Shown piece after piece: positions 32,605-43,400 of a stretch of 44,524 nt of DNA (its first letter is position 1; each line of letters opens with the position of its first letter). The notes beneath the pieces were generated by a model. It saw only the letters and a list, made by a program, of their open reading frames with translations. It was not told the DNA's origin and ran no database searches. Source of the DNA: Gammaproteobacteria bacterium (GTDB lineage: Bacteria; Pseudomonadota; Gammaproteobacteria; Chromatiales; Chromatiaceae). A program made the translations under genes and the position numbers. The stretch lies in the NCBI GenBank assembly GCA_024275295.1, contig JAJRZI010000115.1, positions 1 to 44,524 of the forward strand, read 5' to 3'.

Positions 32605-33679
32605 TTGAATTCTCCAGTGGTAGCAACACAGTAAATACTGTCTCACCCGGTTTGCTACGGCATTCAATCAACCCGCGATGCTGGTTGATAAGTGACTGGG
32701 CAATAGTCAGGCCAAGCCCCATACCCCCTTCGCTGTCACTCACCATAGGGTAGAAAATTTTATTGAGGATATCGGGATCGATACCTGGGCCATTGTCTTC
32801 AATCTCAATCTGAGCAACCAGTTTGTGGCGACTGTTGCCAATGGTGAATTGCCGCTGGATACGGGTTCGTAGCAGTATCTGCCCTTCATGACCTGCGGCA
32901 CGCACCGCATTACGCACGATATTCAGGATAGCCTGGATCAGCTGATCGGCGTCTCCCAGAAACTCAGGGATACTGGGGTCATAATCCAGCGCCAGCTTTA
33001 CCTGCCCGCCAGATTCCGCCTGCACCAGTGAGCGCACGCGATCCAATACCTGGTGGATATTGACCTGTGTATATTGCGGCAGTTTGTTTGGCCCCAGCAT
33101 GCGATTAACCAGGGTTTGCAGCCGGTCTGCCTCATTTATGATGACCTGGGTATACTCCTTCAGCGCCGGATCGGGCAGCTCGTGTTCCAGCAGCTGGGCC
33201 GCTCCACGCAACCCCCCCAGTGGATTTTTGATCTCATGAGCCAGGCCACGGATAAGGTCACGGGCGGCATGATGCTGGGAGATCAGGTGCTCTTCCCGAC
33301 TGATGCGCAGTTGGCGGTCAAGCTGCTGAAATTCAACCAGGATGCCGGATCTGTGCTCGGCATCCGCCAGAGGCATAACCGTGCAGTCTACCGTGATCTC
33401 CCTGCCATCCAGTTTGTAGAGCATCATCTCCCGCTCTGTGAATGGCGCCCCCTCTTCCACGGCCTGTTTGAAGATCTCACTCAGGTCGCGGTCGGGGCAG
33501 TGTATAAAATCGTCCGCCTGTTGGCCCTTCAGATTCCGGGCACTGGCGGCAAACATCATCTCACCGGCAGGGTTGATGTACTGCAGGCGCAACTGCTCAT
33601 CGAACAGGAGAACCGTAATATTCAGGTTCTCCAATATCCAGGGAGAGAGCATTTTGTGCATCAGCTTATCTGCATTCAT
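32597..33679 (-). CDS. ntrB: Nitrogen regulation sensor kinase NtrB (GlnL)
   Basis: Soluble histidine kinase of 360 residues that phosphorylates NtrC under nitrogen limitation and is inhibited by PII. A PAS domain covers about 15-125 (LLFDEQLRLQYINPAGEMMF). The phosphorylated His lies in LAHEIKNPLGGLRGAAQLLEHEL. The ATPase domain shows the N box (ILNIVRNAVRAAG), the G1 box (IEDNGPGID) and the G2 box (EGGMGLGLTIAQ). A Met six codons downstream is an alternative start, and may be preferable because the predicted sigma-54 start point lies right at the first ATG. Confidence 0.95.
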   Translation of the reverse strand: MNADKLMHKMLSPWILENLNITVLLFDEQLRLQYINPAGEMMFAASARNLKGQQADDFIHCPDRDLSEIFKQAVEEGAPFTEREMMLYKLDGREITVDCTVMPLADAEHRSGILVEFQQLDRQLRISREEHLISQHHAARDLIRGLAHEIKNPLGGLRGAAQLLEHELPDPALKEYTQVIINEADRLQTLVNRMLGPNKLPQYTQVNIHQVLDRVRSLVQAESGGQVKLALDYDPSIPEFLGDADQLIQAILNIVRNAVRAAGHEGQILLRTRIQRQFTIGNSRHKLVAQIEIEDNGPGIDPDILNKIFYPMVSDSEGGMGLGLTIAQSLINQHRGLIECRSKPGETVFTVLLPLENSNA

Positions 33680-33690
33680 ATTGCTGCTTA

Positions 33691-33706
33691 TGCAAATATC
33701 GAACCA
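33691..33706 (-). promoter_or_regulatory. Sigma-54 promoter for ntrBC
   Basis: Minus-strand TGGTTCG-ATAT-TTGCA matches the RpoN consensus with GG and GC separated by exactly 10 bases. The start point would be about 33680, adjacent to the annotated ATG, so either the message is almost leaderless or translation begins at the later Met. An NtrC-type site lies about 85 bp upstream. Confidence 0.7.
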
Positions 33707-33756
33707 GACGGATCTGCCCTGTCGTATTGGGGTTTGTGGAGTATGGCTTATGCATA

Positions 33757-33773
33757 CGCACCATTATAGTGCA
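33757..33773. promoter_or_regulatory. Candidate NtrC binding site upstream of ntrB
   Basis: GCACC-ATTAT-AGTGC (33758-33772), flanked by C and A, matches the NtrC consensus TGCACC-N5-GGTGCA at 10 of 12 half-site positions. It is centred about 85 bp upstream of the predicted sigma-54 start, a usual enhancer distance. This suggests NtrC controls its own operon, as is known in enteric bacteria. Confidence 0.65.
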
Positions 33774-33791
33774 TATAATAGGGGGGCTGTG

Positions 33792-33812
33792 CATTATTGC
33801 GTGGCAATAATG
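33792..33812. repeat. Short AT-rich hairpin
   Basis: CATTATTG (33792-33799) and CAATAATG (33805-33812) form a perfect 8-bp stem with a 5-base loop, followed by TTTT on the plus strand. It lies in the 273-bp gap between DUF4124 and ntrB. No plus-strand gene leads into it, so a terminator role is doubtful. It may be a protein-binding palindrome upstream of ntrB. The rest of the gap (33813-33952) shows nothing clear. Confidence 0.35.
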
Positions 33813-33952
33813 TTTTACCTAAATCCTGCAAGTGATTGTGCGCGCAGAGTGCAAGATATTAATTCGTAGAGCGAATGACAACTTTGAGCGCAATCCTCAT
33901 TGTGATTGCCGAAAAGTTTCATATCGCTTCGGGTGCGCTGAATCTACTACGG

Positions 33953-34489
33953 TTACTTAGGGTGCAGAATAGAGTACTGTCGCAGATGAAATGAGACCGT
34001 GCTGGTACTCTTCACAGTCTGCCCTTTGGCATCAACAATATCTGCCTTTAAGGTGTGAGTCCCTCGGGGGATATCTTTTAGCGAGAACTGGGTCGAACTC
34101 AGCTTATCCTTCAGTTTCTGGCCATCTAATGTGACCACAACCTTATCTTCGCCGCGCAATCCAGGCTCCAAAAAAAAGGAGACATTTACAATGCCTTCAT
34201 TACTGCGAATGGTCTCATTCTGCTCAGGTTTGGCAATAGCGAATTTACTGTAACCTGCCCCACTGTCTGCATCATCCTCTTCCTCATTGCCAACACCTCT
34301 ACGCTGAGATGAGTAGGGAGCACTGGGAGAGGCGGGTGGCAAATCAGGCAGGGTTAATACTTCCGCATCATGGCGTGGCTTCTTTTCATCGTAGTGAGTC
34401 ACCCCTTTTTTATCGACCCACTTATAAAAACTGCCCGCAGATGTCAGTAGCGGCAGACAGCTTAAAATAATTATCAGTAATCTAGACAT
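33953..34489 (-). CDS. Secreted DUF4124 domain protein
   Basis: Protein of 178 residues. A signal peptide (MSRLLIIILSCLPLLTSAGS) is followed at once by the DUF4124 motif FYKWVDKKGVTHYDEKKP. A low-complexity acidic linker (about 65-90) leads to an Ig-like beta domain (VSFFLEPGLRGEDKVVVTLDG, RGTHTLKADIVDAKGQ). The function is unknown. In pseudomonads and related bacteria a DUF4124 gene lies beside ntrB (glnL) near glnA, so the neighbourhood is conserved on this side. ATG 34489 was chosen because the signal peptide begins there; the frame extends 13 codons further upstream. Confidence 0.8.
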   Translation of the reverse strand: MSRLLIIILSCLPLLTSAGSFYKWVDKKGVTHYDEKKPRHDAEVLTLPDLPPASPSAPYSSQRRGVGNEEEDDADSGAGYSKFAIAKPEQNETIRSNEGIVNVSFFLEPGLRGEDKVVVTLDGQKLKDKLSSTQFSLKDIPRGTHTLKADIVDAKGQTVKSTSTVSFHLRQYSILHPK

Positions 34490-34550
34490 ATCAAGAGCAT
34501 AGCCGAGCAAATAAGAATCCTCAACCAATAATCCTGGGATAGTCCAAACA

Positions 34551-34576
34551 AAAAAAGGCGGAACCGGAGTTCCGCC
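34551..34576 (-). terminator. Intrinsic terminator of the idr operon
   Basis: Minus-strand GGCGGAAC (34576-34569), loop TCCG, GTTCCGCC (34564-34557), then an uninterrupted T run (34556-34551). The 8-bp GC-rich perfect stem with a T tract, 33 bp beyond the idrA stop codon, is a textbook rho-independent terminator. It marks the 3' end of the operon and separates it from the DUF4124 gene. Confidence 0.9.
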
Positions 34577-34609
34577 GCTAATCCCAAGGTTAAGAACTGT
34601 TTTCAGGGA

Positions 34610-37321
34610 TCAGACAATATTTCTTGGCGCAAAGGAGAAGGAGCGGAATTCACTCTTATACTTTGACTCACCAACCTTCTTGATCCTGGCAACACCCATT
34701 TTATAGTTGTAGTTGCCACTGATGTTATCCACCACTCGGCCCTGCAGTATATTGCTCGGCTGCCTCGGGTCGAGGAAGTAGGAGAACATCACCCCTTTCT
34801 TAACCGCCGGCGTGACAATGGCCACGGCGGTGGCTGCGCCCTCGGAGAGCTTGATGTGGCCTCTCTTCAGTAGTTCAGAGAACTGAAAGTCTTTGCCACC
34901 CACAGCCTTGATGGTGTCAACATGGTTAGGGATGCGGTTGGAGTACATCACCACTTGATCTCCCGACTCAATGCCGCGGGCTGCGGCATCATCCGGGTGG
35001 ATTTCCACCCAGTTCTCGGGCCAGCGCTGGGCAATATAGGCACGGCGCAGCAGATCATCAAAACCCGATTGCCAGACCTCATTGATGCGACCATTAGTGT
35101 GCCACAACTCATCATCCTTGGGTTTCATCCAGCTCCAATAGTCAGAAAAGAGACTCCAGGGATGTTTCTGAATATTGTTCTTTCCGGTCTGGGAGTTGAA
35201 GTGGGTGACCTTCTTGTTCACTACATTTGCCCGCTGAAAGCCATTGGATCCGTATTTCTTTTCTAGATCAACTTCAGTAAGCGTAGTGTCATGCAGACGT
35301 ACCGAACCGCTCAGCTCACCCGTCTCATAGTTGTAGTAGGTAGGCCCCTGAATACCTTCGGTGCCCAGCTCCCGCAGCTTCTCATGCAGGGTTTTGCCCT
35401 CGGCACGGGCCGCAATCATGATCATGTGGTAAGACTTGCGATTGCCACGACTGAAGCGTGCAGACTCTTCACAAACCTCATTGGAGTCCTTCCAGTCGAA
35501 ACCATCGAAGCCCATCTTTTTGCCCACCTCAGCAATGATCCACCAGTCAGGCTTGGCATCACCCGGGGCATCATAGAACTTCGAATAGAGCCGCAGACGA
35601 CGCTCACCATTTGCCCGAGTGAAATTCTCTTCACCCCAGGTGGCAGCTGGGAAGATAATATCCGCATATTTGGAGCCGATAGGATCACGCAGGTAGATAT
35701 CCTGATTGATCACCACCATGCCACCAGAGTCAGCACGCGCCTTCAGTGTCGCAATAATCTTCGCCTTGTCAAAGGAGCGAACCTGGTTTGGATTATTGGT
35801 TACCAGCTCCTCAAACTTGGCGTTGAGTCCCCCTGAGCCGCACATAGACTGAATCCAGGTGGTGCCGATCACATGGGCAAAACGGGTATGCCCCGAGACC
35901 AGCCAACGATCCGTATCCAGAGAGCGACGGCGACGACCTGCCACCTTCTCTGGCGACTTGTTGCGTGGATAGCTGCCACCACCAGTGCCTCCCCGTTGGT
36001 GTCCACCAAAACGACCCACCATCTGACCGGGACGGCCTCCCGCACCACAGATAATAGCCAGGGCGCTAACCGCATTGGTATTGCCCGTGTTATTGGACCA
36101 GTAGAAGCCTTTCTCAATACCCAGTGAGGTTTTGGGACGGCTGCCATCCGCTCTAGGCTTAGCCATCCACTCAGCTGCCTTGCGGATATCAGCGGCTGAG
36201 ACGCCGGCAATCCTGGCGGCCTCTTCAGGCTCATACTCTTTCTGGGAGGTCACCCATTTTTTGTAGCCCTTCTTGCCGTAGACGCCATCCGTCTGGAACT
36301 TGCCCCAGGTGGTGCGCCACTGCCAAGGCGTATTACGCGTACCCTGGCCGAAACCAGAGCTGGACTCCCCCATGCTGTTGACCCACTTATCGATCCAATC
36401 CTTATCCTCCCAGCCATTCTCCAGAATGACACGGGCAATAGCACCCAGTACTAAAGAGTCAGTACCGGGATAGATCTGAAAATGGATGGCATTACCACGA
36501 CTCTTGGCATAGGCAAGGCCCGCCGTTTCACGCGGGTTCAACCAGATAGTTTTCTGTCCAGCATCAATAGCAGGCTTGATGAACTGGGTAAAGACCATGG
36601 TCTTGGTCTCATATGGATCCGTTCCTGCAATCATCAGGGTCTCAGCGTCACGCCAATCACTGTAAGCTTGGCCAAAGTTATCAAAGCCCGCATCACGGAA
36701 GCCCGGTGTTGAGGTCACATCAGAGGGCGTATCATGAAAGGTGAATGACGCTGTCTTGATATGTCGCCGTGCAAACTTCTTGATGGCGTAGGTATTTTCC
36801 ATATACTGATAAGAGTAGGTCTTCACAGAGTAGGCATTGACCCCGTGATCCTTAATGACATGCTTACCCACCTCGGCTGCAACATCCAGTGCAAGATCCC
36901 AGCTCACGGGCTGCAAGAGACCATTGATGCGCATCAGGGGTGACATCAGGCGATCACGGGTTGGCGTGTTGGGATTGTATACCTTTTGAGCAATACAGCC
37001 ACCACGGATACTGGAGTCACCCCCCACATTGACCACTTTGGAGTCTTTATCAGGGATGATAACAACATTGTGGGGCTTGCCTTTGTGCATCACCGTATTG
37101 TGCTGCGTGGGGGCCACCCAGGCCTGCATCGCACCGGTTGGAAAGTTCATGCCAAAGGCGTTCTGATTGGCCTTGGGGCCACCATCAGGTGCATTAGACG
37201 GCCAGCGGTAGATCTTGTAACCGCAAGCGACAATACAGTAGTCACAGCAGGTCGTAAGGACCTCCGCACCCTTGGGTGGCAGCGGAGTTTTGTCCTCGGG
37301 GAGATAATATTTTGTAGACAT
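34610..37321 (-). CDS. idrA: Iodate reductase catalytic subunit IdrA (AioA-like molybdopterin protein)
   Basis: Molybdenum oxidoreductase of 903 residues in the DMSO-reductase superfamily, closest in style to arsenite oxidase AioA. The N-terminal cluster motif C-x2-C-x3-C (CDYCIVACGYKIYRWP, Cys 26, 29, 33) resembles the AioA [3Fe-4S] site. Molybdopterin-binding segments are seen as GGDSSIRGGCIAQKVYNP, WLNPRETAGLAYAKSRG and FGGHQRGGTGGG. There is no Tat signal; as with AioA, export would depend on the Tat signal of the Rieske partner. It is predicted to reduce iodate in the periplasm. The call rests on the two di-haem peroxidase genes in the operon, a feature of idr and not of aio clusters. 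ATG 37321 is preferred to 37363 because AGGAGG lies just upstream and the longer form would overlap idrB. Confidence 0.82.
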   Translation of the reverse strand: MSTKYYLPEDKTPLPPKGAEVLTTCCDYCIVACGYKIYRWPSNAPDGGPKANQNAFGMNFPTGAMQAWVAPTQHNTVMHKGKPHNVVIIPDKDSKVVNVGGDSSIRGGCIAQKVYNPNTPTRDRLMSPLMRINGLLQPVSWDLALDVAAEVGKHVIKDHGVNAYSVKTYSYQYMENTYAIKKFARRHIKTASFTFHDTPSDVTSTPGFRDAGFDNFGQAYSDWRDAETLMIAGTDPYETKTMVFTQFIKPAIDAGQKTIWLNPRETAGLAYAKSRGNAIHFQIYPGTDSLVLGAIARVILENGWEDKDWIDKWVNSMGESSSGFGQGTRNTPWQWRTTWGKFQTDGVYGKKGYKKWVTSQKEYEPEEAARIAGVSAADIRKAAEWMAKPRADGSRPKTSLGIEKGFYWSNNTGNTNAVSALAIICGAGGRPGQMVGRFGGHQRGGTGGGSYPRNKSPEKVAGRRRRSLDTDRWLVSGHTRFAHVIGTTWIQSMCGSGGLNAKFEELVTNNPNQVRSFDKAKIIATLKARADSGGMVVINQDIYLRDPIGSKYADIIFPAATWGEENFTRANGERRLRLYSKFYDAPGDAKPDWWIIAEVGKKMGFDGFDWKDSNEVCEESARFSRGNRKSYHMIMIAARAEGKTLHEKLRELGTEGIQGPTYYNYETGELSGSVRLHDTTLTEVDLEKKYGSNGFQRANVVNKKVTHFNSQTGKNNIQKHPWSLFSDYWSWMKPKDDELWHTNGRINEVWQSGFDDLLRRAYIAQRWPENWVEIHPDDAAARGIESGDQVVMYSNRIPNHVDTIKAVGGKDFQFSELLKRGHIKLSEGAATAVAIVTPAVKKGVMFSYFLDPRQPSNILQGRVVDNISGNYNYKMGVARIKKVGESKYKSEFRSFSFAPRNIV

Positions 37322-37334
37322 CTGGTGCCTCCTC

Positions 37335-37898
37335 CTAGGATTGCAGGTTGTCGTGACGGCCATACAGCAGGCCCATCACTCCAACGGCGTAAATGTCATC
37401 ACCATCCAGCTCCAGCATCACTTGCGGCAGGCTCTGGTAGGCCTGACCGGACACGATAATACCGTTACGGGTCAGATCGTAGGTGGAGAGATGCAGTGGG
37501 CATTGACCCATAACACGATGCGGGCCTATAGCCTTATAGGTACCCACCATGGGGCCACCCTGGTGCGTACAGACATAGCTGAATGCCACCACATCACGTT
37601 TTGGCCCCAGACCACCACCGGCCTTGGCGCCATCCATTTTCACCAGAAAGTTCTGCGCCTTGTCATCCGGGTAGGCAAAGCCCACCAGCTGATTCTCTTT
37701 TAGCTGGCTCAGCTTTCCAATCTTCTTACGTGGATAGCCGACCACCCGCGCCTTGGCTGTGCCTGGGAACAGGCTAAGGGAGACGGTACTCACTGCAACC
37801 GCAGCAGTTCCGCTGTACATCAGAAACTCACGGCGATTTAGCATGCATTTGCCATGCTCAGCCGCTGTCTGATCCTCTTTTTTCTTCAAATCAGTCAT
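37335..37898 (-). CDS. idrB: Iodate reductase Rieske subunit IdrB (AioB-like)
   Basis: Rieske [2Fe-2S] protein of 187 residues. The N terminus has a Tat signal (NRREFLMYSG followed by a hydrophobic stretch and PGTAKA), so the folded IdrAB complex would be exported through Tat. The cluster ligands are Cys110-x-His112 in CTHQGGP and Cys133-x2-His136 in CPLHLSTYD. The two extra Cys that form the disulfide in most Rieske proteins are replaced by Gly and Leu, as in some arsenite oxidase Rieske subunits. It passes electrons between a periplasmic cytochrome or the quinol pathway and IdrA. The start codon overlaps the upstream stop (TAATG) with GGAGG at good spacing; idrA starts 13 bp after its stop. 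Confidence 0.85.
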   Translation of the reverse strand: MTDLKKKEDQTAAEHGKCMLNRREFLMYSGTAAVAVSTVSLSLFPGTAKARVVGYPRKKIGKLSQLKENQLVGFAYPDDKAQNFLVKMDGAKAGGGLGPKRDVVAFSYVCTHQGGPMVGTYKAIGPHRVMGQCPLHLSTYDLTRNGIIVSGQAYQSLPQVMLELDGDDIYAVGVMGLLYGRHDNLQS

Positions 37899-39091
37899 TA
37901 CTTTGCCTCCTGTGCTGCCTGCAGCTGCGCCTTGGTGAAGCGGGCGGCATAGGGCGGCATCTCAGGTTTTTCAACCGTTATCTCATCACCGGAGAAGGCC
38001 TCGATGAAGGCCACCAGATCCTCTTTCTCCTGATCCGTCAGCCCCAGAGGTTTAATCAGCGGGCTTTTGGTTTCAGGAAAGGATGTGGTGCGGCCATCTG
38101 CTGCAACGCCACCCGCGTTATAGAAATCAACAACATCTTCCAGGGTGTCAAATTGTCCACTGTGCATATAGGGCGCGGTGTAAACGGCGTAACGTAGCGA
38201 CGGGGTACGGAATTTACCCATATCCCACTTGTTCTTGCCGCGAAAGTAGGCACCCGGATCATCCTTCAGGGTACGATACATCTCTTCAGGTGAACCCTTG
38301 GCATACAGTTCAAAGCGAAAGGTAATCTGCGCCAGCCCATCTTCTTCCCAACGTTTTACACCCGGCACACCGATGTTGTAGAAGTTCTCATCAGAGGCCA
38401 GGGCACCATTGTGGCACTGGATGCAACCCGCTTTTCCTTCAAATATCTTCTTGCCTCGAATCTGCTCCTCACTCAGTGCAGATTTATCACCCAGCAGGTA
38501 TCTGTCCAGAGGGGTATCCCGCTGTACCAGCGTCCGCTCAAAGGCAGAGATGGCACGGTAGGCATCAAACAGCAGAGGCCACTCAGTTCCGAAGGCTTTC
38601 CTGTTGAGCTCCACATACTTAGGAATCAACGCCATACGGGCTTCCATGATGTCAGTCTCACCGTTACCGGCAACACCACCCTTGGAAGCAGACTTGGCCT
38701 GTTTCTCTAACGACGTGACGGAACCCGCCCAGAACAGCTTGCCGTAGTAGGCAGAATTGATAATAGTTTGGTTACTGCGCCAGTGTACCGTGCCCGGATA
38801 GCCGCGTGAGATATCCTCAGCCCAGGACCAACCCTGATCAGGTTGATGGCAGGTAGAACAACCGGTAGAGGCATCACCACCCAGGCGTGGGTCAAAAAAC
38901 AGATACTTACCCCATCCAATCTTGGCCGGACTCTGTAGATTATCCATCGGAATTGGCGGTGGCCCTAAGGGTGCCAGAGGTGGCGGACCACTCATACCCT
39001 TTTTTGCGTCCTGTGCGACACAGCCTGTTGCAATCATCGCTCCCGCAACAGCCGCCATCAGGACAGGACGAAATTTTATTACTCTTTTCAT
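37898..39091 (-). CDS. idrP1: Di-haem cytochrome c peroxidase-like protein IdrP1
   Basis: Exported protein of 397 residues in the CcpA/MauG family. The signal peptide ends in ATGC, an acceptable lipobox, so it may be a lipoprotein. Two c-haem motifs are present: CSTCHQPDQGW (about residue 79) and CIQCHNGALASD (about residue 219). FRTPSLRYAVYTAPYMHSGQFDTLEDVVDFYNAGG, in pieces, is the C-terminal signature. In iodate-reducing bacteria such proteins are thought to remove hydrogen peroxide or another toxic intermediate formed near IdrAB. The P1/P2 numbering follows gene order from memory of published clusters and could be reversed. It lies 15 bp after the other peroxidase and overlaps idrB. Confidence 0.8.
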   Translation of the reverse strand: MKRVIKFRPVLMAAVAGAMIATGCVAQDAKKGMSGPPPLAPLGPPPIPMDNLQSPAKIGWGKYLFFDPRLGGDASTGCSTCHQPDQGWSWAEDISRGYPGTVHWRSNQTIINSAYYGKLFWAGSVTSLEKQAKSASKGGVAGNGETDIMEARMALIPKYVELNRKAFGTEWPLLFDAYRAISAFERTLVQRDTPLDRYLLGDKSALSEEQIRGKKIFEGKAGCIQCHNGALASDENFYNIGVPGVKRWEEDGLAQITFRFELYAKGSPEEMYRTLKDDPGAYFRGKNKWDMGKFRTPSLRYAVYTAPYMHSGQFDTLEDVVDFYNAGGVAADGRTTSFPETKSPLIKPLGLTDQEKEDLVAFIEAFSGDEITVEKPEMPPYAARFTKAQLQAAQEAK

Positions 39092-39106
39092 GACTGTCTC
39101 CTCGAC

Positions 39107-40213
39107 TTAGTTACGGACATTTTTCCAGTTTTTGATGGCTGCATATTCAGCGGGATACGGTTTCTGCCAGACATGCTTGGCCGTGGTCAGCTGATCACCG
39201 GAAAGTGAGAGCAGGAAGGCCACCAGATCTTTCTGTTCACTATTACTCAGACCCAGAGGCTTAAGCAGTGGACTCTTTTTGCTGTCCTTACCGCCACCCG
39301 CGTTATAGAAGGCCACAACATCATTCAGTGTCTTCAACATGCCATTGTGCATGTAAGGGGCGGTGTATTTCAGTTCCCGCAGGCTTGGGGTCATGAACTT
39401 GCCAACATCAGCTGGATCCAGTGTCACATTGTAGAAACCCGGATCACGCTTCAGGTTCATGTAGTTCTCAATACCCTGAAACATGGCAAAGGCGATAAAG
39501 GCCTGATGATTATTGGGATTGAGGAATACATCAAAGTTCTCAGGCACGCCTGTGTTATGCGCCTTGCCATCAGAGACCAGTGGGCCGTTATGGCACTGAA
39601 TACAGCCGGCTTTACCCTTAAACAGCTTCAACCCTTTTTTGGCAGCCCCTGACATCTTGCCCGTGTCAAAAGGCGCATTACGTGAAGTCAAGCTCTTCAG
39701 GTACTCAGGAATGGCCTTACGCACCTTGCCATTGGATGGCTCACCGTAACCCGCATCCTTGAACATCTTCAGATATACAGGATCCTGCTTTACACGCTCC
39801 TGCATGATGCGCATATCCATATTCATGATGTAATCTTCCGTGATCATTTCACGGGTCATATCATTCAGGCTGGTGCCGATGCGTCCATCGTGATTCCAAA
39901 CCTTCTTATGCGCCACATTGACCAATGTCGGTGCATTACGAAAATGACCGTTGCCAGGATAACCATCAGAGAGTGGTTTATTCTGTGTCCAGCCCTGCTT
40001 TGGATCATGACAGGTTCCACAAGCGATACCTGCATCGCCGGAGAGTCGCTTATCAAAGAACAGACGCTTGCCCAACTCGGCTTTCGCCTTATTGACCTTA
40101 ATCGGCGGCAAGGGTCCGAGATCCGGCACACTGGCCGCTTGGGCACCAAATGCCATCCCGACGCCAATCATGGCGGCGAGTAGGCTGCGCCCGCTCGTGA
40201 CTCGTACACCCAT
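39107..40213 (-). CDS. idrP2: Di-haem cytochrome c peroxidase-like protein IdrP2
   Basis: First gene of the operon, 368 residues. A cleavable Sec signal ends near FGAQA. Haem motifs are CGTCHDPKQGW (about residue 62) and CIQCHNGPLVSDG (about residue 200). The C-terminal block FMTPSLRELKYTAPYMHNG and the FYNAGGGKDSKKSPLLKPLGL segment follow the family. It is a clear paralogue of the downstream peroxidase (same motif spacing, same IQCHNG second site), so the pair arose by duplication. The start at 40213 follows GGAGG by 7 bases. The role is inferred as peroxide removal or electron handling alongside IdrAB; activity as a peroxidase is not shown by sequence alone. Confidence 0.8.
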   Translation of the reverse strand: MGVRVTSGRSLLAAMIGVGMAFGAQAASVPDLGPLPPIKVNKAKAELGKRLFFDKRLSGDAGIACGTCHDPKQGWTQNKPLSDGYPGNGHFRNAPTLVNVAHKKVWNHDGRIGTSLNDMTREMITEDYIMNMDMRIMQERVKQDPVYLKMFKDAGYGEPSNGKVRKAIPEYLKSLTSRNAPFDTGKMSGAAKKGLKLFKGKAGCIQCHNGPLVSDGKAHNTGVPENFDVFLNPNNHQAFIAFAMFQGIENYMNLKRDPGFYNVTLDPADVGKFMTPSLRELKYTAPYMHNGMLKTLNDVVAFYNAGGGKDSKKSPLLKPLGLSNSEQKDLVAFLLSLSGDQLTTAKHVWQKPYPAEYAAIKNWKNVRN

Positions 40214-40540
40214 AGGTATTCCTCCAGTCGGATTTTTAATGTTATATCGGTGATACCGATTGCTAGCTCATTCGCCAGGATTTTCTTGTTATGCCCTGGC
40301 AATAAGAGGCATCCGCAACATTTGCATTTTTCACGCCAAAAAACGAACAATAAAATAACTCCTTTTTAATCCGCTAGTTAGGAATATATTTCCCGTCTGA
40401 CCTAATTTATAGCATGTAATTTATTGAAAGATTTATTCTACACAAGCAGGGAATGTAACAAAGTTACCCATCAGCTAAGGAGGGGGAATTACAGATTAGG
40501 AAGGATTTCTGGATTAAAGAGGAAGTGCAGAATGCTCTGA
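40214..40540. other. Leader/promoter region of the idr operon
   Basis: A 327-bp gene-free stretch between the diguanylate cyclase stop and the first idr gene, both on the minus strand. It holds the perfect palindrome at 40246-40260, a looser inverted repeat GCCAGG-N15-CCTGGC (40274-40300) and a second small palindrome GTAAC-AAA-GTTAC (40455-40467). No ORF is evident. No confident -35/-10 pair or terminator for the cyclase gene could be picked by eye. Confidence 0.6.
40246..40260. promoter_or_regulatory. Candidate operator of the idr operon
   Basis: ATCGGT-GAT-ACCGAT is a perfect 6-bp inverted repeat with a 3-bp spacer, 33-47 bp upstream of the first start codon of the operon. That is where a repressor or a promoter-proximal activator would bind. 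The motif is not FNR-like (TTGAT-N4-ATCAA) or NarL-like as far as I can see, and the regulator is unknown. Confidence 0.5.
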
Positions 40541-42541
40541 TTAACTTAGAACAACTCTGTTTTTACCGCTTGTCTTGGCTGCATAAAGCGCCTGATCTGC
40601 AGTAATTATCAGCGCCTCAAAATCAGTGGCATCATGCGGATAGGTTGCCAACCCCATGCTCACTGACACACACCCAAGTGGCTGATTTTCTGCAAAGTCA
40701 AAAGGATATTCAGCAATCTTTTTAACCAATTTTTCCGCAATGCGTTTGGCTTCTGTTTTTTCAGTCTCAGGAAATATTACGACAAATTCCTCTCCACCAT
40801 AGCGGCATGCGATATCCGTTTTTCTAATTGATTTTTGTATTATTAATGCAAGCTCTTTAAGCAATCCATCCCCCGCTGGATGCCCATTGGTATCGTTATA
40901 GTGTTTAAAGTTATCGATATCCATAATGAGGAATGATAGATCATGCCCATATCTTGCTGCACGAACAACCTCACTCTCTAATGTATCCAGCATAAATCTT
41001 TTGTTATACAGATGTGTGAGGCCATCTGTAATTGCCATCTCTTTTGTCTCTTCAAAAAGGCGGGCATTTTCCATTGCCACAGCCAAATGCTCAGCCACAC
41101 TGTTAAACAGTTTCAAATCAGAAAACAGAAACTGCTTTGGACGATTTTTAAAGGCGCATATAAGCCCCAGTACTTTACCGCGCCGTAAGAATGGAACAGC
41201 AATCAGTGAACCAATATCCGGGCTAAATATATCTTGTTCTGTAATCGTGACATCAGTATCTACATTTTCAATAATTCGGCAAATACCTGCAGATGCCACT
41301 AACGAATAGATACCTTCATGCAAATTTGGTTTTGCACGGCTGATTTCATCTTTAGTAAAACCTGTATGTGAGGCCACCGTAAGCTCAGTAAAATGATGGT
41401 TTGGCAACAGAATCATCATTCGATCAATATCCATATTCCTGCTGATATTCTCTATCAATTGAATGAGCACCTGCTCAATTTCAAAACTTGTATTCAGTGT
41501 CTTGCTTACATTATACAGGGCATATATTTCAAGCAGTCGCTTATCCAGCTCCTCCCTCGTCTCCTCTAATGAGGCGGCCATTTTATTAAAGCCTCTACCT
41601 AATAATCCTATTTCATCTTTACTTTTCACATCTGCGCGCACAGAAAAATCGCCCTCAGATATCTTGTCAAACACGCTCAGCATTTTGTAAAGATTTTTAG
41701 TGATGATGAACGACAGCAAAAAGATAATAACAAGTAAAAACACAATGAAGCGTATAAACCATACCCCCGCCATCTCTACATTATTCTCTCTAATCTGCTG
41801 GTTAATCGCTTCTAATGAAAATTCAAGACTAATTGCACCTAATACATCTCCAGGTTTTGCATATACATGACAGCCATCTTTCTCAGAACAGCCTTCTTTC
41901 CTGGCTGTATAAGGTATTAATACTCTTGCATTATCACCATCAAAGTGATGGATCGCTCTGCCCGTTGCCAATACGGTTCTATCAAGATCATCTTTAGGTT
42001 GCTCTCGGGGGTCTATTGCAATAAAAGCGGATGCCTCTTTAATTTGCTCATCAATCTCTGCAACACTGTCTGTTAGATCCTCTATTTGCTCCTGAAATTC
42101 ATCTTTTTCATCTTCATCCGTGGTTGCTTCCAGTTTTACTGTCAACTCAGAAATTTCATTTTCATAGCCACTCTTTGTTTCTTTAAGTGGTGGTATTACT
42201 TTTCTTTTATTGACCTCCATAAATATATCGTTCGTCAGTTGACTTCTGATGACACTAACATCTTTCAGCCCACTCAACTCTTTGTGCATGGTATCAAAGA
42301 GTGAGAAGCGTATATCCATCTCACCATTACGCATAAGTGTATTCAAAGAGACTCTTACATTTTCAGCAAACAGGAATGTCCACTCTTTCACTGCATCATG
42401 TGTGATTTTTCTGCTTTTTTCTGCATTAAAGGCAATATCCATTACCGTCATCAGCAACAAAATGAGAGATATTGCCCCAATAAATTTCGTACTGAGTTTC
42501 ATATCTCTAAAAGATTGTAATAGACGCTCTATTAAGCTCAT
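40541..42541 (-). CDS. Membrane diguanylate cyclase with periplasmic sensor, HAMP and GAF domains
   Basis: Signalling enzyme of 666 residues. Helix 1 (about 19-38) and helix 2 (about 259-281) bracket a long periplasmic domain containing a charged coiled coil (125-175) and an unusual C-x5-C-H motif (Cys218, Cys224, His225). The following segment PGDVLGAISLEFSLEA parallels the haem-sensor region of the HD-GYP protein at 22715. HAMP (282-335), GAF (about 345-500) and GGDEF domains follow, the last with an intact GGEEFVVIFPE active site, so it should make cyclic di-GMP. It starts 14 bp after the c554-like gene, and the operon arrangement suggests the cyclase senses redox state or that cytochrome. 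The composition is A+T-rich. Confidence 0.85.
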   Translation of the reverse strand: MSLIERLLQSFRDMKLSTKFIGAISLILLLMTVMDIAFNAEKSRKITHDAVKEWTFLFAENVRVSLNTLMRNGEMDIRFSLFDTMHKELSGLKDVSVIRSQLTNDIFMEVNKRKVIPPLKETKSGYENEISELTVKLEATTDEDEKDEFQEQIEDLTDSVAEIDEQIKEASAFIAIDPREQPKDDLDRTVLATGRAIHHFDGDNARVLIPYTARKEGCSEKDGCHVYAKPGDVLGAISLEFSLEAINQQIRENNVEMAGVWFIRFIVFLLVIIFLLSFIITKNLYKMLSVFDKISEGDFSVRADVKSKDEIGLLGRGFNKMAASLEETREELDKRLLEIYALYNVSKTLNTSFEIEQVLIQLIENISRNMDIDRMMILLPNHHFTELTVASHTGFTKDEISRAKPNLHEGIYSLVASAGICRIIENVDTDVTITEQDIFSPDIGSLIAVPFLRRGKVLGLICAFKNRPKQFLFSDLKLFNSVAEHLAVAMENARLFEETKEMAITDGLTHLYNKRFMLDTLESEVVRAARYGHDLSFLIMDIDNFKHYNDTNGHPAGDGLLKELALIIQKSIRKTDIACRYGGEEFVVIFPETEKTEAKRIAEKLVKKIAEYPFDFAENQPLGCVSVSMGLATYPHDATDFEALIITADQALYAAKTSGKNRVVLS

Positions 42542-42555
42542 GCTCTATCTATTTC

Positions 42556-43152
42556 CTAAAAGGAGAAGCTGCTCTTTCCTCTGGGTTTTGGATGATATGC
42601 CTTACGCACCTTTAGCTTTTCCTTCCAGTCAAACTTGTATTTTTTATCCAGCTTTTCATGAAATGGTGACTCTTTATTGGCATGGCACTGCAGGCAGACT
42701 GTTTCATCATCCGCACCATAAAGCTGTCCAAGATCGGTAGCCTCTCGCTTTTCAAAACCATACATTTTTTCATCATGTAATACCGCATATTTACTACCCG
42801 GGCCATGGCATGACTCACAACTCACACCTGCCATCTGTGGGGTGGATTTAATATCCTTGAACCCACCTTTTTTGCGATAGCCCGTTACATGACACTTCAC
42901 ACATTTTTTATCTGCTGTGTAATCCTTATCAGGATCAAGCCCAGCAAGCCGCTTGGCCTTTTTCCTTTTACCCGGTTTCAACACCTTAAATGTTTTTGCA
43001 TGGCTGCTTGTCTTCCAGGCAAGATAATTCGACTTATGGCAGCTTGCACATTTTGCCGCTCCAATATACTTTGGCTTTGCTTCCACTGCCTGCACTATCA
43101 TCATAAGAAAAAACGCCATTGATAGTACCTGCATTGCTTTCCGCCTCTTCAT
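42556..43152 (-). CDS. Tetrahaem cytochrome c554-like protein
   Basis: Periplasmic multihaem protein of 198 residues. A signal peptide ends near VEA. Four c-haem motifs occur: CASCH, CVKCH, CESCH and CLQCH, with YIGAAKCASCHKSNYLAW typical of the cytochrome c554/c' family. Conserved His residues (SSHAKTF, ESPFHEK) may be distal ligands. It probably carries electrons in respiration, possibly nitrogen or sulfur compound metabolism; substrate unknown. The frame is open to 43290, but ATG 43152 has a GGAG ribosome site and directly begins the signal peptide. Co-transcribed with the diguanylate cyclase downstream. Confidence 0.85.
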   Translation of the reverse strand: MKRRKAMQVLSMAFFLMMIVQAVEAKPKYIGAAKCASCHKSNYLAWKTSSHAKTFKVLKPGKRKKAKRLAGLDPDKDYTADKKCVKCHVTGYRKKGGFKDIKSTPQMAGVSCESCHGPGSKYAVLHDEKMYGFEKREATDLGQLYGADDETVCLQCHANKESPFHEKLDKKYKFDWKEKLKVRKAYHPKPRGKSSFSF

Positions 43153-43400
43153 AGCTTCTTTCTCCTCACCAATAAAAAACAGCAAAACACAAACCGATAC
43201 ATCTGTTTGCGGCTCACAGCAACTGTTCTTGAATAAATCTTTACCGTGCTGTTCCACCAAAAAGAGCGATTGGAACCGTAGCAAGGGCAACTAAGGTACT
43301 AAAGATGTGGGTTCTTCTGGCTGAATTTATTCGAAGGCGTTGAGCGGATTTTAGAGCACGTAGGGCGCACTAAGGTTGCTTTGCAAAATGTATAATATGT
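43153..43400 (-). other. Long leader of the cytochrome c554-cyclase operon with alternative hairpins
   Basis: A 248-bp gap upstream of the cytochrome gene. On the minus strand ACAGCA (43252-43247) can pair with TGCTGT at 43221-43216 or with a second TGCTGT at 43184-43179. The second is followed directly by a run of six T. A third stem, GCAAAC/GTTTGT, lies between. Mutually exclusive pairing with a T tract suggests an attenuator, though the stems are short. The distal half (43262-43400) shows nothing I can assign. Confidence 0.35.

Follow-up and report, generated by a model that had tools for sequence, protein, structure and literature searches.

The four-gene cluster at 34610-40213 of contig JAJRZI010000115.1 (assembly GCA_024275295.1, Gammaproteobacteria bacterium) raises the question whether an enzyme that resembles arsenite oxidase (Aio) in its molybdenum and Rieske subunits is instead an iodate reductase (Idr), as the first-pass annotation had proposed. 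The window analyzed is the whole stretch of 44,524 nucleotides (nt); publications are cited by PMC number, and from excerpts. The cluster very probably represents the full core set of iodate-reductase genes, idrP2-idrP1-idrB-idrA, arranged as one operon; it would belong to a subgroup found mostly in marine bacteria (the Ser-type), reside on the chromosome of an uncultured Sedimenticolaceae bacterium and work by the mechanism proposed below. Respiration of iodate by the organism itself is likely. A four-gene system leading from iodate to iodide is already known, and what is new is that both of its "peroxidases" lack the residue that such peroxidases need.

Gene content and order of the operon

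The operon consists of the following parts:

39107..40213, minus strand: idrP2-type di-haem c protein, 368 amino acids (open reading frame, Pfam, motif and residue alignment)
37898..39091, minus strand: idrP1-type di-haem c protein, 397 amino acids (open reading frame, Pfam, motif and residue alignment)
37335..37898, minus strand: idrB, Rieske [2Fe-2S] small subunit with twin-arginine translocation (Tat) signal, 187 amino acids (Pfam, TIGR02694, motifs)
34610..37321, minus strand: idrA, molybdopterin catalytic subunit, 903 amino acids ([3Fe-4S] motif, Ser-type pocket H/D/T/S...R/H)
34557..34576, minus strand: predicted intrinsic terminator closing the operon (hairpin GGCGGAACTCCGGTTCCGCC-T7)

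The tight linkage, coupled junctions and terminal hairpin noted in the first-pass annotation were all recovered. The genes run head to tail on the minus strand from 40213 to 34610, with 327 nt between the end of the upstream gene and the operon, and the junctions by open reading frame positions are 15 nt, a 1-nt overlap (TAATG) and 13 nt. The longest idrA frame opens at 37363, and the ATG at 37321, preceded by GGAGGAGG, gives the 903 residues reported initially. The hairpin at 34576-34557, directly 3' of idrA, has the longest stem (8 pairs) among the terminator-like sites; six such sites were observed against 5.6 expected in shuffles, and thus their number by itself is uninformative.

Pfam assigned CCP_MauG to the two di-haem proteins (E 9e-36 and 7e-35), Rieske to IdrB, and Rieske_3 and Molybdopterin to IdrA. 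Motif searches revealed two haem motifs in each di-haem protein (CGTCH/CIQCH and CSTCH/CIQCH), the Rieske motif CxHX20CxxH and the Tat motif NRREFL in IdrB, and CX2CX3CX70S, which is of the [3Fe-4S] type, in IdrA. The idrABP1P2 sets of Denitromonas sp. IR-12, Pseudomonas sp. SCT, Azoarcus sp. DN11 and Aromatoleum TC-10 have four genes in the same order as the window (PMC10989891), with cofactor motifs and export signals of the same kinds, although the Rieske spacing is X18 in DN11 (PMC10149662).

Two co-oriented, adjacent di-haem genes thus lie upstream of idrBA in the window. The same order, P368-P397-B-A, is kept in 81 of the 82 Idr loci for which 3.2 kb or more of upstream sequence was available, which excludes a chance arrangement; a further 54 loci were too short or cut, four duplicates were skipped, and the loci counted are not independent, some being copies of one genome. 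The lone exception, L204 (G994:C78), branches deeply and encodes IdrAB, but no di-haem genes were found there. Its pocket carries an Asp and its IdrA match is in two pieces; this locus is a possible key to the divergence of Idr and Aio. No di-haem match was found in five Aio-type plasmid loci with at least 4 kb of flank; ten other Aio loci (L013, L116-L124) have only about 1.5 kb and are therefore of little weight here.

Iodate reductase versus arsenite oxidase

The cluster could in principle be an arsenite oxidase, AioBA, which oxidizes arsenite, passes the electrons to cytochrome c and has two di-haem genes as accidental neighbors. The best family models and the closest solved structures for IdrA are indeed those of Aio, and AioBA of NT-26 and Thermus HB8 shares with the window the fold family, the [3Fe-4S] and Rieske centers and the pocket residues His199, Arg447 and His451. 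Nevertheless, the phylogeny argues otherwise. In a quick maximum-likelihood tree (LG+G4) of 68 chosen rows, 54 of them a chosen subset of the Idr rows and 14 Aio, the two sets part at support 100 and the window IdrA lies among 44 Ser-type rows. A program warning concerned long branches that meet, both between the two halves and inside them; since the Aio rows were chosen as the root, the rooting is an assumption, whereas the split itself has good support. A catalytic subunit inside the AioA clade, the outcome named in the first-pass annotation as refuting its reading, was thus sought, and IdrA was found outside it. Its identity is 63-93% to Ser-type rows, 49-51% to Asp-type rows and 28-35% to the 14 Aio rows.

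The residues around the molybdenum point the same way. In AioA these are H199, N200, R201, E207, K385, R447 and H451 (Warelow and others, PMC3758308), and six of the seven positions could be mapped, K385 being unmapped in the alignment and therefore dropped. The Aio rows read H/N/R/E/R/H without exception (14/14). Ser-type rows carry H/D/T (44/44), then S in 43 and A in one, then R/H; Asp-type rows carry H/D/K/D/R/H (7/7), and three further Idr rows H/D/(H,H,Q)/(S,S,D)/R/H. Consequently N200, R201 and E207, constant in all 14 Aio rows, are replaced in all 54 Idr rows, and the window IdrA, with H/D/T/S/R/H, lacks the Aio second-sphere set. In a larger set, Glu occupies the E207 position in 15/15 Aio rows and in 0/93 Idr rows (90 distinct); these 15 include three rows not counted among the 14, namely L119, L124 and the Bosea row L110, in which position His199 is Gly and position E207 is Glu.

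There is also no aioXSR-like set among the adjoining genes, and a di-haem pair kept in nearly all of the Idr loci counted is hardly an accidental neighbor. Arsenite oxidase identity was ruled out by clade, pocket residues and synteny, and we regard this explanation as extremely improbable. As judged from tree, synteny and pocket, the catalytic subunit is an Idr and not an Aio, in agreement with the first-pass annotation, and the pocket residues give a simple rule that told the two apart among the rows covered, a distinction missed by standard family models.

Ser-type and Asp-type Idr groups

The Ser-type group marked out by our survey has putative iodate activity. Endozoicomonas sp. OPT23, whose IdrA is 72% identical to that of the window and falls in the same Ser-type clade, has been named among putative iodate reducers (PMC8692401). 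The idr loci of this strain and of Vibrio, Moritella, Ruegeria, Pseudovibrio, Sedimenticola and Ca. Thiodiazotropha are Ser-type like the window, with IdrA identities of 67-78% and the same gene order where the flank sufficed, while their genomic neighbors differ.

On the Asp-type plasmids of Azonexus (L104) and Thiothrix (L105/L141), genes for a two-component system and a c-type cytochrome, together with moaA, adjoin the operon. Azonexus belongs to the Rhodocyclales, as do three of the proven iodate reducers. Within the Asp-type subgroup, L104, L105, L111 and L157 share 76-84% pairwise identity, and the identities printed for the proven strains are 76% and 84% (PMC8801600). On account of the Rhodocyclales host and these similar identities we take the proven strains to be Asp-type, from resemblance and not from their own sequences. 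Compared with the group that resembles IR-12, SCT, DN11 and TC-10, the window IdrA is about 50% identical and has Thr/Ser instead of Lys/Asp.

Certain observations weigh against the window operon being an iodate reductase. Its IdrA exceeds the cutoff of the NCBIfam arsenite oxidase model TIGR02693 (404.4 bits; cutoff 359.05) and its IdrB that of TIGR02694 (113.4 bits; cutoff 95.65), so that the standard family models cannot tell the two enzymes apart. No proven iodate reducer could be placed in the Ser-type clade, and none is present among the relatives of IdrA used (best 80 of 349). Unlike the idr loci of IR-12, SCT, DN11 and TC-10, the window operon is not directly adjoined by a two-component system, cytochrome c551 or moaA; these accessory genes often accompany idr but are also often missing in accepted idr members (PMC8801600), and therefore do not define Idr. 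Finally, an active gel band led to the identification of the R. azorensis enzyme, which has a predicted mass of 99.4 kDa (PMC11445184). In one alphaproteobacterial family, three full-length Asp-type IdrA have predicted masses of 99.2, 99.2 and 99.4 kDa and seven full-length Ser-type IdrA 99.7-100.1 kDa, a weak hint that the proof may concern the Asp-type and not the Ser-type; outside that family the mass ranges touch (Ser-type L115 99.6, Asp-type Azonexus 99.7). When the masses of IdrA, SecA and IF-2 were compared with those printed for R. azorensis, none of the alphaproteobacterial genomes compared was seen to fit all three, SecA or IF-2 being unreadable in some. A search for further Asp-type genomes in the family and in the order of G783 returned only G783 itself (1/20 each time).

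The distance between the two types leaves room for a Ser-type reductase of the Idr fold that serves another oxidant, for example bromate, chlorate or another oxyanion, with iodate as a side substrate at best. The identity of only about 50%, the two pocket differences and the lack of an assignable proven reducer among the Ser-type rows would agree with this. However, operon and gene order are the same in both types, and many carriers are marine, iodate being a common form of iodine in seawater. Furthermore, downstream of the Ser-type copy L034 of Sedimenticola hydrogenitrophicus SN1189 lie two-component genes whose products share 53% and 63% identity with those of Azonexus, which ties both types to one signal. 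Three marine bacteria with idr have been shown to reduce iodate but were unable to grow on it anaerobically (PMC11445184), which, together with the distance from the Asp-type group, keeps the use of iodate as electron acceptor by the window organism, proposed in the first-pass annotation, at no more than likely; marine alphaproteobacteria with idr are among the reducers in that report, their type being unassigned. We thus believe that another oxidant is unlikely to be the substrate of the window enzyme, and that iodate is the probable one.

Proposed mechanism and the di-haem proteins

For the window operon as an iodate reductase, IdrB would take IdrA along through the Tat system into the periplasm, where electrons from the cytochrome c pool would pass through the Rieske center and the [3Fe-4S] cluster to the molybdenum cofactor. 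There, by analogy with the work on Denitromonas and Pseudomonas, iodate would be reduced to hypoiodous acid. The final step to iodide may be chemical disproportionation or may be aided by IdrP1 and IdrP2, as MauG-type di-haem subunits without the peroxide-cleaving residue that relay electrons or reduce hypoiodous acid. A route through chlorite dismutase (Cld) was ruled out for the host genome, in which the family PF06778 had no match, and this speaks against the Cld model.

IdrP1 and IdrP2 of the window are 40% identical over 335 positions. IdrP2 has a Sec-type signal (by eye) and a MauG-like Tyr at the C-terminal haem, and its distal Gln, Pro and Glu are all replaced. IdrP1 has a possible lipobox (IATGC) and the same Tyr, with the distal Glu and Pro changed to Ala and the Gln kept. 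The best models for both proteins are MbnH and MauG, far below the NCBIfam cutoffs (197.8 and 179.9 versus 362.85; 186.4 and 171.2 versus 443.85). With these enzymes they share the domain family, two CxxCH motifs and the Tyr at the C-terminal haem, but not the catalytic Glu (MauG Glu113). Similarly, of the distal Gln and Glu of bacterial di-haem cytochrome c peroxidases, the Glu is absent from both proteins and the Gln is present in IdrP1 only.

This pattern extends across the family. We aligned 84 IdrP2-type and 88 IdrP1-type rows (83 and 87 distinct, the window pair entering twice via L211), which form 88 clusters at 80% identity (43 IdrP2 and 45 IdrP1), with 17 controls from outside idr, namely Paracoccus MauG, a separate peroxidase that the host encodes on contig C31, two chains of solved structure and 13 further proteins from plasmids. 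Residue calls are alignment columns, not structures; structure models of both proteins had a mean pLDDT (predicted local distance difference test) of 38 and 37 and were not used. The acid-base glutamate is absent from all 172 IdrP rows and present in 15/17 controls, the two without it (L215, L221) being located between a response regulator and a sensor kinase. Its position is Ala in 87/88 IdrP1 rows and Gly in one, and Ile, Leu, Ser, Thr, Phe, Met, Val or Trp across all 84 IdrP2 rows. The distal Pro is Ala in 88/88 IdrP1 rows and is found in 0/84 IdrP2 rows and 14/17 controls. The distal Gln is kept in 82/88 IdrP1 rows (Glu in six), in 0/84 IdrP2 rows and in 17/17 controls; the inter-haem Trp occurs in 88/88 IdrP1 rows, and in IdrP2 this position is His (68/84) or Trp (15/84). 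The C-terminal haem ligand position is Tyr throughout the IdrP rows (172/172), and Tyr (10), Met (5) or His (2) in the controls. A further 34 matches were left out, two as short and 32 as cut at the locus end with one CxxCH; these 32 are all IdrP1-type, with VAGN in 29, LAGN in two and ISGN in one, and Glu in none.

Removal of hydrogen peroxide (H2O2) by IdrP1 and IdrP2 is assumed in both published models, with electron shuttling mentioned as a possibility (PMC8692401). The two proteins might accordingly be true H2O2 peroxidases that use another acid-base residue, and the CCP_MauG fold, the paired CxxCH motifs, the Gln and inter-haem Trp retained in IdrP1, and the H2O2 observed in strain SCT, as told in PMC8692401, are in favor of this. 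On the other hand, the Glu is missing in every row, the Glu-to-Gln change in BthA impaired both activities (PMC6405878), changing the Glu or the Gln of a bacterial peroxidase gave inactive variants, according to PMC10094543, and the host has a separate peroxidase with canonical residues. Because of the missing glutamate and these variant data, H2O2 removal by IdrP1 and IdrP2 is doubtful, and true peroxidase function seems to us possible but rather questionable. From the first-pass annotation, which had called the pair peroxidases, the domain and the two CxxCH motifs stand, and the label itself appears doubtful.

Another role may be considered. IdrA was found together with IdrP1 and IdrP2 in the active bands of SCT and DN11, as would be expected of subunits, the DN11 bands also containing many unrelated proteins; the same report leaves room for an unknown protein acting on hypoiodous acid (PMC10149662). 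Both IdrP proteins also match the hydrazine synthase gamma chain 5c2v_C in sequence. Hydrazine synthase gamma is a precedent for a di-haem fold acting on a non-peroxide substrate. We tentatively suggest, as an idea still short of probable, that across the idr family IdrP1 and IdrP2 are not peroxidases but MauG-like components of the iodate reductase complex that lost the glutamate, had their distal pocket remodeled thereafter, and reduce hypoiodous acid to iodide or pass electrons to IdrB. If so, they would be the enzyme for the last step, which is purely chemical in the abiotic model and catalyzed by chlorite dismutase in the other. The missing glutamate makes their role in iodine chemistry testable by a simple assay. 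No discussion of it was found in the excerpts of the Idr literature covered; Yamazaki 2020, which reportedly described the idr genes, lay outside that coverage. Among the matches listed for iodate and MauG, none was about Idr by title.

As for the possible lipobox, the IATGC Cys of IdrP1 was invariant in 11 rows, not so after two Asp-type rows were added, and a loose lipobox pattern fits 19/88 IdrP1 frames. IdrP1 is perhaps membrane-anchored in the lineage of the window.

Carriers and genomic context

In a survey of 54 other genomes, IdrA was present in all five same-genus relatives (three whole, one split over two contigs, one as a 59-residue end) and in 5/28 other genomes of the family (three whole, one cut, one with stops). 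The last of these, L012 (G018:C40), has stop codons inside its IdrA matches and comes from a draft rated 40% complete, so either decay or assembly error may account for them. The idr trait is thereby extended, at the gene level, to an uncultured genus of the Sedimenticolaceae. Named copies at 76-78% identity, among the best 80 of 349, belong to Sedimenticola, Ca. Thiodiazotropha and the endosymbionts of Escarpia and Lamellibrachia, so that symbionts of clams and tubeworms have close idr copies; G012 corresponds to Ca. Thiodiazotropha endolucinida, assigned by NCBI to the Sedimenticolaceae. Earlier work had included Sedimenticola thiotaurini among putative reducers (PMC8692401). Our literature search found nothing on iodate in Thiodiazotropha, although published supplementary lists may name such symbionts, and for iodate reductase in symbionts it returned only the genome of strain SCT. 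The iodide level of seawater depends in part on iodate reduction, and this iodide contributes to the loss of ozone at the ocean surface (PMC11445184).

A chromosomal location, claimed in the first-pass annotation, is plausible from the ntrBC-type and other housekeeping neighbors, with the reservation that the assembly is a draft in 162 contigs. The operon has a G+C (guanine plus cytosine) content of 52.9% against 51.1% in the remaining window, so its composition does not mark it as foreign. The 3' side of idrA carries a DUF4124 gene and an ntrBC-type pair (ntrB by NF008293), as in G001 and G002; these are not in the 1.6 kb compared for G003. The downstream neighborhood is therefore kept in the genus with local reshuffling. 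No RNA families were found in 33500-41000 and no transfer RNA genes in the window.

Upstream of idrP2, six loci (L025, L027, L030, L032, L035, L208) carry a SCO1/SenC gene and an 800-amino-acid cytochrome c with an ethylbenzene-dehydrogenase haem domain, the families being named by Pfam on L025 and by similarity in the other five; both are absent from the window and the same-genus stretches compared. S. hydrogenitrophicus seems to have two idr operons, since strain SN1189 has two idrA loci (L031, L034), and in strain SB48 (L030 5054-18679) a second idrP2 copy, 96% identical, starts 12.5 kb from the first at the stretch end. Just upstream of the window operon, an AT-rich minus-strand pair at 40541-43290 (about 39-43% G+C versus 51%) encodes a diguanylate cyclase, whose sensor part has CxxxxxCH, and a cytochrome c554-like multihaem protein. 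It is absent from the G001 and G003 stretches compared and lies upstream of idr in G002 as well (82-83%).

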